Shown here: in pieces, positions 5,307-57,334 of the stretch
Position numbering within the stretch: position 1 is the first letter of the stretch
How the letters are laid out: the number at the start of each line of letters is the position of its first letter
Source of the DNA: a virus
Reading direction: 5' to 3' (one strand)
IMG/VR virus record: IMGVR_UViG_3300025785_001096
Coordinates: 93,934-157,933 of that record
DNA length: 64,000 nt
Program-made: the position numbers and the translations under genes
Notes under the pieces: model-generated
Seen by the model: the letters and a program-made list of their open reading frames with translations, nothing else
Databases searched by the model: none
Told to the model about the DNA's origin: nothing

Positions 5307-5387
5307 ATGACATATTTAGCCTGTTTGATCGCTGTAGCAGTTTTACTCTATGTAATGATAGAGATAAAAAACTGGTTGGATTTTTAA
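5307..5387 (+). CDS. Possible 26-residue membrane peptide
   Basis: MTYLACLIAVAVLLYVMIEIKNWLDF: one hydrophobic helix with a charged tail. ATG 5307 is 5 nt after the TATAAATA box; an in-frame ATG at 5301 overlaps that box. No RBS. Between two RNA features and too short for certainty. Confidence 0.35.
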   Translation: MTYLACLIAVAVLLYVMIEIKNWLDF

Positions 5388-5394
5388 AGAATTG

Positions 5395-5732
5395 TTGTAA
5401 CTCCTTTAGAGTGAAGGCATTGCGGACGTGGGTGCGATTCCCACCACCTCCACCTAAACGTATTGTTGATCTGGGACACGAAGTCGTGCAGTTAGTCTAA
5501 GATCCCATTGTTTAGTGGGTACACAGGGGCAGATCCTGTACAGTATGTTTAGTTGGGGGTGACTAGTTTCGACGTGGTGAGATAGCAACGAAGGCAACAG
5601 GACAGAGCAGTCCAAAAAACTAAAAAAAGTAAACGCAAACGACTCACAGTTCGCATTGGCAGCCTAAGGGCCGCCTAGGGCAGGAAATGCCTCGTAACAG
5701 AAACAACCATTGTGTTGCCTAAAAACAACACC
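5395..5732 (+). ncRNA. ssrA: Circularly permuted (two-piece) tmRNA
   Basis: The acceptor (3') part comes first. It contains GGAC, a T-stem GTGGG (5428-5432)/CCCAC (5440-5444) around loop TGCGATT, then CACCTCC (5445-5451) and discriminator A5452, followed by CCT rather than an encoded CCA. After a ~100-nt intervening segment the coding (5') part begins at 5555: GGGGGTG pairs fully with CACCTCC (one G-U) and is followed by ACTAGTTTCGACG, the tmRNA D-arm-like signature. The tag frame follows at 5635. A 6-bp hairpin GTGTTG/CAACAC near 5712-5731 and a terminator end the unit. This order is the permuted ssrA layout known in alphaproteobacteria, cyanobacteria and some betaproteobacteria. Outer ends are approximate. 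Confidence 0.88.
5635..5667 (+). other. tmRNA tag reading frame ANDSQFALAA-stop
   Basis: The resume codon GCA at 5635 is followed by AAC GAC TCA CAG TTC GCA TTG GCA GCC and TAA. The tag ANDSQFALAA keeps the AND start and ALAA end of bacterial SsrA tags; the ALAA end is the classical ClpA/ClpX degron. Confidence 0.88.
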
Positions 5733-5734
5733 TT

Positions 5735-5759
5735 AAACCCCCTGAAAATGGGGGTTTTT
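5735..5759 (+). terminator. Rho-independent terminator of tmRNA
   Basis: Stem AAACCCCC/GGGGGTTT with loop TGAAAAT, ending in T5. It directly follows the tmRNA coding piece. Confidence 0.9.
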
Positions 5760-17165: not shown

Positions 17166-18743
17166 ATGAAAGTTAAAAAAATTATTGTAGTAGGTGGTGG
17201 TACAGCAGGCTGGCTCAGTGCCGGTTTTATTGCTAGTCAATTGCCCGAAGTAGAAGTCACTGTGATTCACAGTAAGGATGTTCCAATTATTGGTGTTGGG
17301 GAAACTACGGTACCGCAGTTCCGCAATCACTTGGAAAAAATGGGTCTACACGAAGATCTATGGTTGCGTGAGTCAGGCAGCACATTCAAGTACGGTGTTA
17401 CCTTTGACAACTGGCGTACTGGGTCAGACACACGTTGGCACGGATTTGGCGATTTTGTTACAGAAAAAGGTATCAGCCATAGTATGGACGAGTTTGGCAA
17501 ACGTGTTAGCTGTGCCAAGGACGATTCAGTATTGATAGCCGACTACTGGATTGAAATGCTCAAACGTGGCATTGTTACCGAAGAGGATTACTATCAATAT
17601 GCGTCAGATACGTATCATTTGGTTCAGAATCGCCGAGCACACAGAAACCTAGCGGGACACCAGTATTCGAGCCGTGTGCCGGGCTATGCTTATAATATCA
17701 ACGCATTCAAAGTGGGACAAACTATCAAGAACCACGTGGCCATCCCGGCTGGGGTAAAGACCCTGGAACGTCACATTGTTCAAGTGCTACGCAACGAGCG
17801 TGAAGAAGTAACAGGTATTGTAGACGATGGCGGGGAAACACATACCGCAGACTTGTACATTGACTGCACCGGCTTCAAGCGACTACTGATTGGTCCTGTG
17901 GGCAAATGGATCAGTTACGAGGATCGACTGCCGTGTAAGAATGCTATTGGTGGACGTGTAAACTATCAAGGACGCGAAGCAGAATTCTGTGTACCTAACC
18001 TACACGCTACAGCATTCAACCACGGTTGGTCGTGGCGTGTTCCCTTACGTGATGACTTGGGTTCGGGCTATGTGTACGATACACGTTTCACCACAACTGA
18101 ACAGGCCATAGAAGAGTTGTCGGCATACTGGCAGAACCTCGGCTTGGAGTGGGATCATAAAGTTACTTTGACATTTGACAACGGTATCCTGGATCGTTCG
18201 GCACACCGTAACGTGATTGCCTGCGGACTCAGTTCAAACTTCCTGGAGCCCCTGGAAGCCACAAGTATTAGCTTTACTACGCTAATCAACGAATTGGTTG
18301 TGGCAGTACTTAAAAAGCACGACTGCCATTGGAATGACGGTGAGGATCGTGTGTTAAGTCGTTTAATGAGCCGTGAAGTCAAGATCACCGGTGACTTCTT
18401 GTGGGCACACTATGCCTTGACCGAACGTTCAGATACAGAGTTCTGGCGCGAGCAAGCCGGTAAGCGTGAGGAAGCAGTTGATATGGTACACGGTTGGTTT
18501 GGTCGTCACTTTAGCGATATCTATCGTAGAGAAAAAGACTTTGACCACACACGCTACAACAAGTATGACTGGGCGCAGACCATTACCACTATGCGAATAT
18601 TTGATGGTTGCCCTACTCGTGAGATCAATGAAGCCTTATTACCACGTGCTCGTCTATGGTATCAACACAGAGATGAAATGACTCGCGGTGTATTAGATCT
18701 TGTGCCAACGCACTGGGAATTGATTCAACATATCAACAGATAA
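17166..18743 (+). CDS. Flavin-dependent (tryptophan-type) halogenase
   Basis: 525 residues, full length for the family. FAD-binding GGGTAGW (10-16) and GVGET; the Lys that aligns with catalytic Lys79 of RebH is K75 (STFKYG). The WxWxIP signature reads GWSWRVPL (~286-293), and the catalytic-Glu motif reads FLEPLEAT (~361). All motifs for HOCl channelling are intact. Uses reduced FAD, O2 and halide, normally with a partner flavin reductase, none of which is seen here. Substrate may not be tryptophan. RBS AGGAAG upstream; coupled to the next gene. Confidence 0.9.
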   Translation: MKVKKIIVVGGGTAGWLSAGFIASQLPEVEVTVIHSKDVPIIGVGETTVPQFRNHLEKMGLHEDLWLRESGSTFKYGVTFDNWRTGSDTRWHGFGDFVTEKGISHSMDEFGKRVSCAKDDSVLIADYWIEMLKRGIVTEEDYYQYASDTYHLVQNRRAHRNLAGHQYSSRVPGYAYNINAFKVGQTIKNHVAIPAGVKTLERHIVQVLRNEREEVTGIVDDGGETHTADLYIDCTGFKRLLIGPVGKWISYEDRLPCKNAIGGRVNYQGREAEFCVPNLHATAFNHGWSWRVPLRDDLGSGYVYDTRFTTTEQAIEELSAYWQNLGLEWDHKVTLTFDNGILDRSAHRNVIACGLSSNFLEPLEATSISFTTLINELVVAVLKKHDCHWNDGEDRVLSRLMSREVKITGDFLWAHYALTERSDTEFWREQAGKREEAVDMVHGWFGRHFSDIYRREKDFDHTRYNKYDWAQTITTMRIFDGCPTREINEALLPRARLWYQHRDEMTRGVLDLVPTHWELIQHINR

Positions 18744-44825: not shown

Positions 44826-44970
44826 TATGCAACGCCGGTATATGCCGACGTCGGACTTAACATTGACGCCTAGGGTAGTGAAACCCTTTTACTAGTGTGA
44901 TACACCTAGAACGCCGATTCCCGTAAGTAGCACACGCTACAAGCCTTAAACAAAAAAACTTTTGCAAAAG
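44826..44970 (+). ncRNA. Structured 5' leader (candidate RNA regulator)
   Basis: Non-coding, with a perfect palindrome CCGACGTCGG (44845-44854), hairpin AGGGT/ACCCT (44872/44883), a CTAGTGT/ACACCTAG bulged hairpin (44892-44909), GTAGC/GCTAC (44927/44936), and CTTTTGCAAAAG (44960-44971) just before the translation start. The string ACGCC recurs three times. No known riboswitch recognised. Confidence 0.5.
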
Positions 44971-44982
44971 GTAATTTTTAAA

Positions 44983-45462
44983 ATGAAAACAACAACAATT
45001 CGCTGGGTTATTGCTCACGAGCCGTTAGATCTATTCTTACGTGCCGCTAAGGATTTCCAAGACTATTTGAATGCAACACAATCTGTAGAAAAAATTGAAG
45101 TAGAAGTAATGACATTGGGCGAGTACTCTGCCAAGTACAAGAACGGTGCTCCTGTAACCAAACACGATCTATTAGATCTAATGGAATCAGGCGAAATCGA
45201 AATGAGCCAAATGTACACAACTTGGTTAGCTGAAAAGTATGACCACGATATGTTAGCTCTAGAAATGCCATTCTTGTTTGAAAACCACGACCACGCTACT
45301 CGCGTGTTAGAGGGTGAAGTTGGTGAGTTCTTGCTAGACAAGATCACCGAATCAGGCAACGTTCGTGGTATGGCTTTCACATACTCAGGCGGTTTCCGTA
45401 ACGTATTAAGCAGCAAGAAAGTTGAATCACTAAAAGGATTAACTGGTGAAGATCAGAACTAA
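44983..45462 (+). CDS. TRAP/DctP-like binding protein, N-terminal part (frameshifted)
   Basis: 159 residues from ATG 44983. TIRWVIAHEPLDLFLRAAKD, EMPFLFENHDHATRVLEGEV and MAFTYSGGFRNVLSSKKVES follow the DctP family closely up to SLKGLT, then stop 5 codons later. The continuation (VKIRTNRNPVAQETFKALG) is in the +1 frame in the next reading frame. Unlike true DctP there is no signal peptide, so it would be cytosolic or virion-borne. Late promoter and structured leader. Confidence 0.75.
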   Translation: MKTTTIRWVIAHEPLDLFLRAAKDFQDYLNATQSVEKIEVEVMTLGEYSAKYKNGAPVTKHDLLDLMESGEIEMSQMYTTWLAEKYDHDMLALEMPFLFENHDHATRVLEGEVGEFLLDKITESGNVRGMAFTYSGGFRNVLSSKKVESLKGLTGEDQN

Positions 45463-45940
45463 TCGTAATCCGGTAGCTCAGGAAACTTTCAAGGCGTTGG
45501 GCGTTGATGCGTCCGACATACACATTTGCGAAATCGAAGATCTTGCACCACACATCAAAGCAGGTGAGTGTGATGCAGGCGAAGGAGTTTACAGCCGTGT
45601 TTATCCGTTGGGACAGGACGAAGTTACAGAATCTGTTATCGACAGCAAACACAGCTTGTTCTTGACTACCATGATTATCGGCGACAAATTTTTTAAAAGT
45701 TTGAGCCCAGAAGTACGTGCTATTATCAAAGAAGCAGCCATAGTAGCCGGGCGCAAAGAGCGTTTAAAAACAATTGAGGATGGCGAAGAAGCCAAAGCCA
45801 AATTGATCGCCGAAGGTGTCAACATTCACGATTTAACCGAAGAAGAACTGGCTGAGTGGAAAGAAAAGTCTCAAGTGGTCTATGACAAATTTGAACCAAC
45901 TTTTACTCCTGGTCTAATCGACAAAATCAAACGCAGTTGA
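45446..45940 (+). CDS. TRAP/DctP-like binding protein, C-terminal part (frameshifted)
   Basis: 164 codons from GTG 45446, overlapping the upstream frame by 17 nt. It starts exactly at the DctP motif lkGlKIR...pvaqetfkALG, then GECDAGEGVYSRVYPLGQ, LTTMIIGDKFFKSLSPEVR, the family's C-terminal helices. No RBS, so it is probably translated, if at all, by frameshifting, or the split is a sequence error or mutation. Joined length (~320) is normal for DctP. Confidence 0.7.
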   Translation: MKIRTNRNPVAQETFKALGVDASDIHICEIEDLAPHIKAGECDAGEGVYSRVYPLGQDEVTESVIDSKHSLFLTTMIIGDKFFKSLSPEVRAIIKEAAIVAGRKERLKTIEDGEEAKAKLIAEGVNIHDLTEEELAEWKEKSQVVYDKFEPTFTPGLIDKIKRS

Positions 45941-45951
45941 TTTAACCAAAT

Positions 45952-45993
45952 AAACGGACAGGTATTTACAGCCTGTCCGTTTTTCTTTATAAT
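45952..45993 (+). promoter_or_regulatory. Terminator hairpin carrying a promoter -35 in its loop
   Basis: 11-bp stem AAACGGACAGG/CCTGTCCGTTT (45952-45982) plus T tract ends the TRAP-like gene. The loop holds TTTACA (45965-45970), and 17 nt on lies TATAAT (45988-45993), a promoter for the TctC gene at 46028. Confidence 0.8.
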
Positions 45994-46027
45994 TACAATA
46001 CAACCTCAATAACCTAGGATTTCAACA

Positions 46028-46942
46028 ATGAAAAAGATTCTCGCCCTATTGCTGTGCGCTTTTGCACTATCTGCAACAGCTAAAGAAACAGTAACAATCA
46101 TGTACGGCTTTAGTCCAGCCGACACCATGGCCAACTACAGCCGCACACTGGCCGAAGAAGCCAACCGGATTCAAGACAAGTACACATTTGTGTTTGATAC
46201 CAAACCTGGTGCTGGCAATAGTATTGCAGCCAACTATGTGTTGAAAACACCAAACACCATTTTTGCCACATCGGGCGCATTTTTTGTACGACCAAACTTT
46301 TATCCCAACGAAAGCTACGATGTGCAGGCATTCCAGGAAATTCTACCACAATGTAATGCACCAATGAGCATTGCCAGTGTCAAATACAAGAGCTGGAAAG
46401 AAGTGCCTGCCAATGCACCAATTACCGTTGCCACCAGTGGACTGGGTGTAGTCAGTCATTTGACAGCGTTGCAAATACTAAAGAAATATCCCAATGGCAA
46501 AGTTATTCCGTTCAAGTCAACCACAGATGCACTGGTATCTACTGTGGCTGGTCAAACAGATTTTGCTGTAGGCTTTCTAGGCGACCACGAAAAGTGGACC
46601 GATCCTGATGGCAAAGTGCGAGTCACTATTCTAGGCACATCAGGTCCCAAACCAGTCAACGGTCACCCCAGCCTGGTCAGTGCTGGATTTGACAAGATTT
46701 TGGCATCCACCGACAATCCACATCAATTGATGATTCCAGTAACTACACCCAAGGCGCAGGCCGACGAATGGCGCAAGATCCTGTTCAAAGCTGCCAATAG
46801 CAAATCAGTGCGTGATGCTTACGCAGTGGATCACTGCGGTATACTAGATCGTATGGAAGACAAAGACATTCAGCCTTGGTTCCAGGCACAAAATGCCATG
46901 TGGTCCAAGCTCACAGTCGGTGTCAAACTAGACAACAAATAA
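46028..46942 (+). CDS. tctC: TctC-family binding protein (copy 2)
   Basis: 304 residues. Signal peptide MKKILALLLCAFALSATA, then IMYGFSPADTMANYSRTLAE, DTKPGAGNSIAANYVL, GLGVVSHLTALQILKKY. Same fold as copy 1 but only distantly similar, so ligands may differ. RBS is weak (AACCTAGGA). TAATG overlap to PP-loop 3. Confidence 0.85.
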   Translation: MKKILALLLCAFALSATAKETVTIMYGFSPADTMANYSRTLAEEANRIQDKYTFVFDTKPGAGNSIAANYVLKTPNTIFATSGAFFVRPNFYPNESYDVQAFQEILPQCNAPMSIASVKYKSWKEVPANAPITVATSGLGVVSHLTALQILKKYPNGKVIPFKSTTDALVSTVAGQTDFAVGFLGDHEKWTDPDGKVRVTILGTSGPKPVNGHPSLVSAGFDKILASTDNPHQLMIPVTTPKAQADEWRKILFKAANSKSVRDAYAVDHCGILDRMEDKDIQPWFQAQNAMWSKLTVGVKLDNK

Positions 46943-53251: not shown

Positions 53252-53923
53252 ATGCCAACGTCACAAGAGTATTCAGAATTAAGCGACAGCGACAAGAAAA
53301 AAGAAGATTGGATGAACAGCAAATGGCGTCCAATGATGGGCTGGATGTATATGGCTGTTTGTATGTTTGACTTTATGTTGGCACCAATATTATGGTCAAT
53401 GCTACAAGCTGTGTTTCACGGCGGAATCAACACACAATGGCAACCATTGACACTACAAGGCGCCGGTTTGTTTCACATTGCAATGGGTGCCGTATTGGGT
53501 ATTGCTGCATACGGTCGCACACAAGAAAAAATGGCTGGTGCCAATAACGGCGGCCTAACACAACCAGTAGGTACCACATATATTCCGCCAGGCGGTATGC
53601 AGGGCGGTATGAACTCAGGTATGGGCGGTGGATTTGGCGGACAATCATCAGGTGGATTTGGTGGCAGCACTGGAGGCTTTGGCGGACAATCATCAGGTGG
53701 ATTTGGCGCACCAGCCGCAGGAGGTTTTGGTTCGGGTACCACAGGAGGTTTTGGTACTCCGGCCGCAGGTGGATTTGGCAGTCCCGCAACCGCACCAAGT
53801 ACAGGTTCATTTGGATCAGCAACACCAGCCGCACCAAGTACAGGATTTGGTGCTGCATCTACTCCGTCTTTAAATGCAAACGGACAAAAAATAGTTCCTC
53901 AAACAGCATTTCCTGCGTTATAA
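53252..53923 (+). CDS. Holin-like membrane protein with FG-rich tail
   Basis: 223 residues. N-terminal ~90 residues resemble 3-TM phage holins: KWRPMMGWMYMAVCMFDFML, then two further hydrophobic segments and AAYGRTQEKM. The C-terminal ~115 residues are low-complexity, with repeated GGFG units (GGFGGQSSGG, GGFGSGTTGG, GGFGTPAAGG). RBS AGGAG. Holin role inferred from topology and its position near lysis genes. Confidence 0.65.
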   Translation: MPTSQEYSELSDSDKKKEDWMNSKWRPMMGWMYMAVCMFDFMLAPILWSMLQAVFHGGINTQWQPLTLQGAGLFHIAMGAVLGIAAYGRTQEKMAGANNGGLTQPVGTTYIPPGGMQGGMNSGMGGGFGGQSSGGFGGSTGGFGGQSSGGFGAPAAGGFGSGTTGGFGTPAAGGFGSPATAPSTGSFGSATPAAPSTGFGAASTPSLNANGQKIVPQTAFPAL

Positions 53924-54134: not shown

Positions 54135-54175
54135 AAAGCCGGTAGTTTGACTCTGCCGGCTTTTTCATTTATAAT
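54135..54175 (+). promoter_or_regulatory. Terminator hairpin carrying a promoter -35 in its loop
   Basis: Stem AAAGCCGG (54135-54142)/CCGGCTTT (54156-54163) plus T tract ends the upstream transcript. TTGACT (54147-54152) sits in the loop, and 17 nt on is TATAAT (54170-54175), which leaves 6 nt to ATG 54182 (leaderless dnaJ). Confidence 0.8.
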
Positions 54176-54181
54176 ACTACA

Positions 54182-55033
54182 ATGACTTATTACGAAATTT
54201 TGGGTGTCGGCGATAAAGCCACTGCCGAAGAAATCAAACGTGCTTATCGCAAGCTCGCAAGTCAGCACCACCCTGACAAAGGTGGTGATACCAAACGATT
54301 CCAAGAAATACAAACAGCCTACGACACTCTAAGCGATAATAACAAGCGTCAACAGTATGATATGCAACGCAACGGATTTGGTGGTGGTCCTGGCGGCGTA
54401 CACTTTACCTGGCATTCCAATGATGCCAACCATCCCGACATCAATGAAATATTTCGCAATTTTGGGTTTGGTGGTTTCAGCAACGATCCTTTTAGTCCAT
54501 TCAGACAAAGAGAAAGACGCAATAAAGATCTGCGCATAGAAATTCCTGTGGATCTGATAGACACTTTGCAAGATCAAACCAAAACTATCAGTGTACAAAC
54601 CACAAACGGGCAACGCAGTACAATGGAAGTGAATATTCCTAGAGGAGTAACTTCTGGTACACAGATCAAATATGCCGGTTTGGGAGACAATTTATTTGAC
54701 ACCATTCCCAGAGGTGATCTTTATGTGCAATTCAGTGTGCGTGTTCCGGAAAGGTTTGTTGTACATAATCTTGACATTCATACCCAAGTTGTAGTAAACT
54801 GTTTAACAGCAATAGTTGGGGGTACAGTTGTAGTTGCAGGTATAGACAACAAAGAATTTGAATTGACAATTCCACCGGGCACACAACCTGGGACCAAATT
54901 TAGATTGGCTCACAATGGATTGTACCAATTAAATTCAAGTGAGCGTGGTCACCTGTACATAGAACTGGCAGTCAGTATACCACGAGATCTTTCAGCCGAT
55001 CAACTTGAAATTATAAAGAATCTTATCAATTAA
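54182..55033 (+). CDS. dnaJ: DnaJ/CbpA-type co-chaperone
   Basis: 283 residues. J domain 1-65 with HPD (QHHPDKGGDT), Gly/Phe linker (GFGGGPGGVHF), then two C-terminal beta-sandwich domains (VNIPRGVTSGTQIKYAGLGD; LTIPPGTQPGTKFRLAHNGL). No CxxCxGxG zinc finger, so it is CbpA-like (class II). Works with host DnaK. Leaderless start. Confidence 0.92.
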   Translation: MTYYEILGVGDKATAEEIKRAYRKLASQHHPDKGGDTKRFQEIQTAYDTLSDNNKRQQYDMQRNGFGGGPGGVHFTWHSNDANHPDINEIFRNFGFGGFSNDPFSPFRQRERRNKDLRIEIPVDLIDTLQDQTKTISVQTTNGQRSTMEVNIPRGVTSGTQIKYAGLGDNLFDTIPRGDLYVQFSVRVPERFVVHNLDIHTQVVVNCLTAIVGGTVVVAGIDNKEFELTIPPGTQPGTKFRLAHNGLYQLNSSERGHLYIELAVSIPRDLSADQLEIIKNLIN

Positions 55034-55048: not shown

Positions 55049-57334
55049 ATGAACCATAATCCAGAAATAGAATTAATTATTGCCAACGCGACCGAAGCTG
55101 CAAAAGATCGCAATCACGAATATGTGACCTTGGAACATCTAGCCCTTGGCTTGATAACATTTAAGCCCTGGAATGATTTGCTAACAGCATTTGGCATAGA
55201 TGTCAAAGGGTTGATAAATGATTTAGAGGACTATTTACAAAAACAAACATACATTGTCAGCACAGCCGAAGACAATATTCCAAAGAAAACACACAGCCTG
55301 GAACGTGTGTTTAATCGTGCATTTACTCAGGTGTTGTTTAGTGGACGTAATCACGTACAGACCATTGATATCTATTTAAGTATTGCATCAGAGACCAACA
55401 GTCACGCCAGTTATTTCTTTGTCAAGTATGGACTTGAACGCAGTCAGCTGGTGGATTTCTACAATCAAAACTATGTAGAAAGCAAAGGACGCAAAATAGC
55501 TGCCAATGCACGTGCCGATGAAATCTTAAACGAATATTGTGAAAATTTAAACGTGGCTGCCAAAGAAGGAAAAATTGATCCAGTGGTAGGACGCGAGTTT
55601 GAACTGGATGAAATTGCACAGGTCTTGGCCAAGCGTAACAAATCAAATGTGTTGATGGTGGGCGATGCTGGTGTAGGTAAAACTGCCATTGCCGAAGGTC
55701 TGGCACGTAACATTACCGAAGGCAAAGTTCCTGAATATCTACGTGACTATGTGGTATACAACTTAGACATTGGTAGCTTGCTGGCTGGAAGTAAATATCG
55801 CGGTGAATTTGAAGAAAAATTCAAAGATGTCATTGGAGCCTTGGGAGCCAAAGGCAAGTGCGTGTTGTTTATCGACGAAGCACATCAAATGCGTGGTGCC
55901 GGATCTGGTAGCAACAGCTCAGTGGACTTTGCCAACATGATCAAACCGGCCTTGAGCAAAGGCAACATCAAAGTGTTGGCATCAACCACCTGGGAAGAAT
56001 ACACACAATCGTTTGAAAAAGATCGTGCCCTGATGCGTCGCTTTGTACGTATGACCATTGAAGAACCTACTCCGGCCATTGCCAAAAATATCTTGCGTGG
56101 CCTGCGTGAATACTTTGAAACATTCCACGGTGGTGAAATCAGTGACGCAGCCATTGATGCCGCTGTTGAATTGAGTGTGCGTTATCAACCAGATAAAAAA
56201 TTACCAGACAAGGCCATCGACCTGATTGATACTGCGGCGGCCCGATTAAAAATCAATGCTGTTGACTGGTGTGTGCGTAAAACACACATTGTGGATATTA
56301 TCAGCAAATTTACAAAAATCCCAGCAGAACAAATTGGATCAGAGTCGACTAAAAATCTAGTTAACCTTGAAGACACTATCAAAACCAAATTGTACGGACA
56401 AGACTCTGTGGTTGATACTGTGCTGGAAAAAATCTATGTTGCCCGTGCTGGACTCAAAAGTCTCAACAAACCAATTGGTAACTTTTTGTTTTTAGGGCCA
56501 ACTGGCACAGGCAAAACCGAATTGGCCAAATTGCTGGCCGAAGGTATGGGAATGAAGATGTTGCGTTATGATATGAGTGAATATCAAGAAAAACACGCTG
56601 TGGCCAAATTGATTGGTGCGCCACCGGGCTATGTGGGCTACGACGATAGCAATCTTGGCGGTGGCTTGCTGATTAGCGACATTGAAAAAAATCCCAACTG
56701 TGTGATCTTGTTTGACGAAGTTGAAAAGGCACACCCCGATATTATGAATATCCTGTTGCAATTGATGGACGAAGGCAATATTACCAGCTCAAACGGTAAA
56801 AAGGCCGATGCACGTAACGCCGTGGTTATTCTTACCAGTAACTTGGGTGCCAGTGCCAATGAACAAAACAACATTGGCTTTGGACGTGATTTACAAAAGT
56901 CAGGCGAAGATGACAAAGCGGTACGAGACTTCTTTAAACCTGAATTCCGTAATCGCTTGGATGCTATTTGCAAGTTTAACAAATTGAACGAAGTAAGTAT
57001 CAAGAAAATTGTTGCCAAGTTCATCAACGAAGTCAACGAATTGTTGGCTGAAAAGAGCATACGTATTCGTTTAACTGAACGTGCAGTAGATCACCTAGCC
57101 GAAGTCGGATACGATAGCAAGATGGGCGCTAGACCTTTGGGTCGCAAGATCAGTGACTTGATCAAAGTGCCGCTCAGTAAAAAGATCTTGTTTGAATCTA
57201 TTCCAGCCAATACTGTGATCGAAGTAGACTGGGCAGATGAAAAGTTTGAATTTAACGCTGTAGATACTTTTACAGCAAACGTACCAATGATAGACGCTAA
57301 TGGATACATCGTTCTGGATTCAGTGCAATCCTAA
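55049..57334 (+). CDS. clpA: ClpA-type AAA+ unfoldase
   Basis: 761 residues (host ClpA ~758). N-domain with two repeats (1-150; EYVTLEHLALGLITF), AAA1 Walker A GDAGVGKT (~205-212) and Walker B VLFIDEAHQ (~271-279), no ClpB middle coiled coil, AAA2 Walker A GPTGTGKT (~485-492) and Walker B VILFDEVEKAHPD. An IGF tripeptide (NNIGFGRD, ~610) sits where ClpA/ClpX carry the ClpP-docking loop, so it could dock on host ClpP. Pairs logically with the phage tmRNA tag. Confidence 0.92.
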   Translation: MNHNPEIELIIANATEAAKDRNHEYVTLEHLALGLITFKPWNDLLTAFGIDVKGLINDLEDYLQKQTYIVSTAEDNIPKKTHSLERVFNRAFTQVLFSGRNHVQTIDIYLSIASETNSHASYFFVKYGLERSQLVDFYNQNYVESKGRKIAANARADEILNEYCENLNVAAKEGKIDPVVGREFELDEIAQVLAKRNKSNVLMVGDAGVGKTAIAEGLARNITEGKVPEYLRDYVVYNLDIGSLLAGSKYRGEFEEKFKDVIGALGAKGKCVLFIDEAHQMRGAGSGSNSSVDFANMIKPALSKGNIKVLASTTWEEYTQSFEKDRALMRRFVRMTIEEPTPAIAKNILRGLREYFETFHGGEISDAAIDAAVELSVRYQPDKKLPDKAIDLIDTAAARLKINAVDWCVRKTHIVDIISKFTKIPAEQIGSESTKNLVNLEDTIKTKLYGQDSVVDTVLEKIYVARAGLKSLNKPIGNFLFLGPTGTGKTELAKLLAEGMGMKMLRYDMSEYQEKHAVAKLIGAPPGYVGYDDSNLGGGLLISDIEKNPNCVILFDEVEKAHPDIMNILLQLMDEGNITSSNGKKADARNAVVILTSNLGASANEQNNIGFGRDLQKSGEDDKAVRDFFKPEFRNRLDAICKFNKLNEVSIKKIVAKFINEVNELLAEKSIRIRLTERAVDHLAEVGYDSKMGARPLGRKISDLIKVPLSKKILFESIPANTVIEVDWADEKFEFNAVDTFTANVPMIDANGYIVLDSVQS

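Follow-up and report, generated by a model that had tools for sequence, protein, structure and literature searches.

The window analysed here, a stretch of 64,000 nucleotides, spans positions 93934-157933 of a 158-kb virus record (IMGVR_UViG_3300025785_001096). On its plus strand the phage encodes a two-piece (permuted) tmRNA at 5341-5735, an unusual cargo for a phage, with the tag ANDSQFALAA; the gene is a match to RF01850, a betaproteobacterial family, and a host from among the betaproteobacteria is accordingly probable. A 525-aa protein encoded at 17166-18743 (+) resembles tryptophan-halogenase-like proteins of cyanophages and of pelagiphage HTVC008M. The T4 capsid and portal families found no match in the virus's own genome, and none in the controls either.

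Two intergenic sites, at 45952 and 54135, were studied. The first follows a DctP-like (TRAP solute-binding) gene (44962-45940, +), which is split at about 45446-45462 into two overlapping reading frames (44962-45462 and 45446-45940) and begins without an obvious signal peptide; the gene may be a pseudogene with a frameshift, the shift may be programmed, or the assembly may be in error at this point. Downstream of the site lies the gene of a TctC-like solute-binding protein (46028-46942, +), which has a weak Pfam match (22.4 bits, under the cut-off of 27) and an apparent signal peptide. The presence of two adjoining transporter receptors in a phage suggests a nutrient-uptake cargo. The second site separates the lysis region, consisting of a holin-like gene (53252-53923, +; GTA_holin_3TM, phrog_3427 lysis) and a small Lys-rich ORF, from dnaJ (54182-55033, +), the product of which has a J domain and a C-terminal domain; a gene for a ClpA/ClpB-type AAA+ ATPase (55049-57334, +) is next in the predicted dnaJ transcript.

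The first-pass annotation had described at each site an intrinsic terminator stem with TTTACA or TTGACT in its loop, a T tract serving as spacer and a TATAAT 17 nt away, and both the coordinates and the folding bear this out. At site 1, after the stop codon (45940) of the DctP-like ORF, the predicted terminator (45952-45987, +) is made up of a 12-bp stem (45952-45963/45971-45982), a 7-nt loop (45964-45970) and a T tract (45980-45987). The predicted promoter (45965-45993, +) has its -35 box, TTTACA (45965-45970), within this loop and, after 17 nt, the -10 box TATAAT (45988-45993). At site 2, 3' of the holin and small Lys-rich ORFs, the predicted terminator (54135-54169, +) has an 11-bp stem (54135-54145/54153-54163), a 7-nt loop (54146-54152, TTTGACT) and a T-rich tract (54161-54169); the predicted promoter (54147-54175, +) combines the TTGACT of the loop (54147-54152) with a TATAAT at 54170-54175, again after 17 nt. 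In both cases the T tract falls inside the spacer and is followed by a perfect TATAAT, and the stretch that would carry both functions is about 45 bases long. The hexamers match 11 of 12 consensus positions at both sites, the spacer lies within the 16-18 nt of sigma-70 promoters, and a G+C-rich RNA hairpin stands directly before a U tract, as in intrinsic terminators.

From the standard sigma-70 spacing, in which transcripts start about 7 nt beyond the -10 box, transcription from promoter 1 is predicted to start near 46000, leaving a 5' UTR of about 28 nt with an AGGA ahead of the ATG at 46028. At site 2 the TATAAT ends 6 nt ahead of the dnaJ ATG (window 54170-54184), and the same spacing puts the predicted start on the A of this ATG, at about 54182, which would yield a leaderless mRNA. 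As no ribosome-binding site would intervene between such a start and the coding sequence, dnaJ expression should depend on its own promoter rather than on mRNA reading through from upstream. A distance of 5-6 nt between TATAAT and ATG recurs across many phage dnaJ loci, whether the hairpin is present or absent.

Upon RNA folding, the two hairpins yielded -18.8 (site 1) and -17.5 kcal/mol (site 2), with z values of -7.3 and -6.0, and no shuffled sequence folded as well as either of them. In a 20-kb scan they were the top two among 21 terminator-like sites, and their promoters took two of the first three places among the promoter-like sites. In AT-rich DNA, strings that resemble promoters or terminators are frequent, and the coincidence of the two might be attributed to chance. 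We consider this exceedingly improbable: the whole 158-kb record contains two elements with this geometry, whereas 100 dinucleotide shuffles averaged 0.01 and never exceeded 1 (for a strict form of the geometry, two compared to 0), and the conservation and covariation described below point the same way. For the dnaJ site, chance is refuted by the shuffles, the conservation and the covariation combined. While site 54135 is backed by comparison, site 45952 rests on anatomy and statistics, and could by itself lack one of the two activities.

The first-pass annotation had proposed a search for this geometry in the genome and in related phages. Beyond the two copies in the record, the element was found to precede dnaJ in 12 further distinct phage loci; these were among 51 loci obtained by a DnaJ protein search of viral contigs, in which upstream DNA was ignored and similarity of the protein alone determined what was fetched. 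Across the 13 dnaJ loci the hexamers are near-invariant, with the TTGAC, the T tract and the TAT.AT of the -10 box fully so, and the stem is rewritten around them. Changes on both sides were observed in nine of the 11 stem pairs, and the stem covariation score was 0.491, compared to 0.203 +/- 0.033 upon shuffling; it dropped to 0.14 or less once the partner was slid by at least one column. The hairpin is thus conserved as RNA, through compensatory and G.U changes, as expected of a terminator. In the DnaJ tree, the window falls within a supported clade of 10 members, all of which have kept the -35-in-loop form; a separate pair of loci (L026 and L051) also carries this form.

Other forms were observed as well. 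At five other dnaJ loci it is the TATAAT that lies in the hairpin loop, with the T tract after it; upstream of dnaJ in three more (L024, L031 and L032) a long hairpin (-27 to -33 kcal/mol) surrounds the -10 box without a T tract, and the remaining dnaJ lineages include promoters with no hairpin. The named phages Atu_ph07, Phosso and Cellulophaga phi17:2 have a dnaJ gene without the element, as there is almost no gap 5' of the gene in which to hold it. Element 1 was not found upstream of four TctC relatives (L007-L010), where promoters are present without terminator overlap.

Palindromes across the -35 box are classical repressor sites, and the inverted repeat could accordingly act as DNA, as the operator of a dimeric regulator with the -35 box at its midpoint, rather than as an RNA terminator; none of the present results favours this. 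An operator of this kind would be strand-symmetric with conserved half-sites, and A.C mismatches would be as frequent in it as G.T among the transition mismatches. At the inner stem positions, however, G.T mismatches on the sense strand outnumbered A.C by 35:6, where composition predicts about 1.2:1. The T tract is present on the 3' side only and is invariant in the dnaJ set, and the arms, which would be the half-sites, have been freely replaced through compensatory change. A repressor operator was therefore rejected as very unlikely. The G.T excess, taken together with the one-sided T tract, indicates selection on the hairpin in the form of sense-strand (coding-strand) RNA, as fits a terminator.

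To assess frequency, IMG/VR viral contigs were scanned for promoters whose spacer contains a T run, a hairpin not being required; a hairpin was called when a stem of at least 7 bp held the -35 box in its loop, and 5' arms swapped between sites served as the control. The samples include related phages. Among the matches listed for the first pattern, a hairpin loop enclosed the -35 box at 23 of the 115 distinct sites, compared to a mean of 1.5 for the swapped arms, a control of the hairpin and not of its register, the spacer T tract itself pushing the loop towards -35. A second pattern gave 53 of 151 in viral contigs (6.5 expected) and, at sites absent from the first sample, 38 of 94 (6.0 expected), both among the matches listed. 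In GTDB genomes, two of the 115 matches listed for the first pattern had the hairpin (0.2 expected); on these listed matches viral contigs and GTDB genomes differ with a Fisher p of 7e-6, and viral DNA has the interlocked arrangement far more often than bacterial genomes do. The -10-in-loop geometry was observed in viral contigs in 13 of 118 matches listed, compared to 0.5 expected. Elements with a downstream reading frame, 87 among the matches listed, stand ahead of 41 unrelated protein groups. When strong viral promoters were sampled by an extended -10 box alone, the geometry was present in one of 140, without clear enrichment; it is a recurrent minority arrangement, not the rule for phage promoters.

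Cultured Kyanoviridae cyanophages also carry the element. In S-PM2 it lies at 124309, upstream of Hli03; Syn1 has two, at 169048 (upstream of hli03) and 184263, and DSL-LC03 has one at 170464. Variants with less perfect hexamers were found in DSL-LC02 and SynMITS9220M01. The exact pattern, outside which looser -35/-10 variants fall, was absent from T4, SPO1, K, KVP40, Syn9 and P-SSM2; HTVC008M has one match at the level of the pattern.

That a single element ends one transcript and starts the next, as the first-pass annotation claimed, is supported at the sequence level by the shuffles, by stem covariation round an invariant loop, by recurrence in unrelated phages and by the sense-strand G.T bias. 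We consider it highly probable that at both sites an intrinsic terminator is interlocked with a sigma-70 promoter, insulating adjacent operons. RNA polymerase arriving from the upstream operon would transcribe both arms and the T tract and be released at that point; as long as no polymerase is reading through it, this duplex would act as a host sigma-70 promoter, its -35 box provided by the loop DNA and its 17-bp spacer by the 3' arm and the T tract, with the TATAAT following. The new transcript would start beyond both arms, and hence could neither form the hairpin nor be terminated by it. The -35 box may be located in the loop because the loop alone need not pair, which lets the hexamer stay fixed while the stem varies freely. 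A -10 box in the loop would be an alternative solution, also found, and a loop that offers a cost-free place for a fixed hexamer would explain both geometries. Besides termination and initiation, we infer from this arrangement that the lysis genes would be insulated from the chaperone operon, and that a terminating and an initiating polymerase would occlude each other.

The first-pass annotation had also held that two sequences of the same geometry argue for design rather than chance. Its rejection of chance stands, on the shuffles, the covariation, the recurrence and the G.T bias; this support does not extend to design understood as a special coupling of regulation. One possible explanation for the overlap is plain genome compaction, in which the terminator and the promoter of neighbouring operons overlap to save space and are not functionally coupled. 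The elements sit in short gaps between co-directional genes, in S-PM2 the TGA stop of the upstream gene is inside the TTGACT of the -35 box, other terminators in the virus's own genome have a promoter directly after them without overlap, and no new mechanism is required. The gaps in the window are nevertheless not minimal (34 nt from TATAAT to the ATG at 46028), and the overlap persists through a diverse dnaJ clade, though some other dnaJ lineages have hairpin-less promoters. On balance, we lean slightly towards compaction.

A different scenario is that termination and initiation are functionally coupled, either because they are mutually exclusive, the terminating polymerase covering the promoter, or because the released polymerase slides and re-starts on the site (recycling termination). 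The geometry puts termination within the promoter, and both geometries (-35 or -10 in the loop) are enriched and occur upstream of dnaJ in different lineages. Bacterial RNA polymerase has been reported to remain on the DNA after termination and to re-start nearby (PMC11347151). Compaction, however, predicts the same sequences, and we regard coupling as rather unlikely. More doubtful still is the broader proposition that interlocked terminator-promoters constitute a widespread class of phage elements with two standard geometries, in which the overlap itself keeps termination and initiation from occurring together or passes the released polymerase directly on to the next promoter.

The overlap of an operon's end with the next promoter is already known in principle from frd-ampC of E. 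coli. There the promoter falls upstream, within frdD coding sequence, and the ampC leader contains the terminator/attenuator, which can therefore act on ampC's own transcript. As in the elements described here, a single short region both closes one operon and opens the next; the frd-ampC terminator, however, is part of the leader, whereas here the terminator is inside the promoter, upstream of +1. In bidirectional intrinsic terminators, a symmetric hairpin flanked by an A run and a T run also serves two transcription units, but these are convergent operons, whereas the present elements lie between co-directional ones and carry a promoter. The promoters of the N4 virion RNA polymerase likewise tie a phage promoter to a DNA inverted repeat. 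Those are small hairpins near -11, used by a single-subunit phage polymerase and devoid of sigma-70 hexamers; the 11-12 bp stems centred on -35 and the consensus hexamers observed here do not fit that class, which was rejected.

Recycling termination resembles the present arrangement in having a terminator near the next start site, at which the polymerase may stay and re-start, but it involves separate elements within about 1 kb (PMC11347151), whereas here the same base pairs are shared and the hexamer is in the loop. The open-access papers searched, among which '-35' is unsearchable as a term and most of the subscription literature is missing, contain no earlier account of a recurrent phage element whose terminator loop holds a -35 or a -10 box; this silence is weak evidence of novelty. 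In an annotation of 16 cyanophage genomes, promoters were predicted apart from terminators (PMC3037559).

Annotation usually treats terminators and promoters as distinct parts; here the two form a compact composite with base pairs in common, which occurs in many phages and is retained in a dnaJ lineage. Its recognisable signature can mark where operons meet in uncultured phages, and it offers synthetic biology a ready-made promoter with insulation built in. Such junctions, those of the cultured cyanophages S-PM2 and Syn1 among them, are also a clean system for asking if polymerase is recycled or excluded.

A 208-kb viral contig (G001) carries several elements, two of which have covarying stems, AAACCAACTC/GGGTTGGTTT and AAACCAGTTC/GGACTGGTTT. 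A promoter array was also observed (L119, record G001:C1:198431-206224), with about 10 repeats in 8 kb and a near-identical spacer, TTGACA..TTGGTAAAACCTTGCTATAAT, that contains a small GGT/ACC dyad. At five further loci (L140, L144, L149, L118 and L711) a larger form was seen, in which the TTGACA lies between an inner CTGG..CCAG hairpin and an outer stem of a G run and a C run, followed by the T tract and TATAAT.
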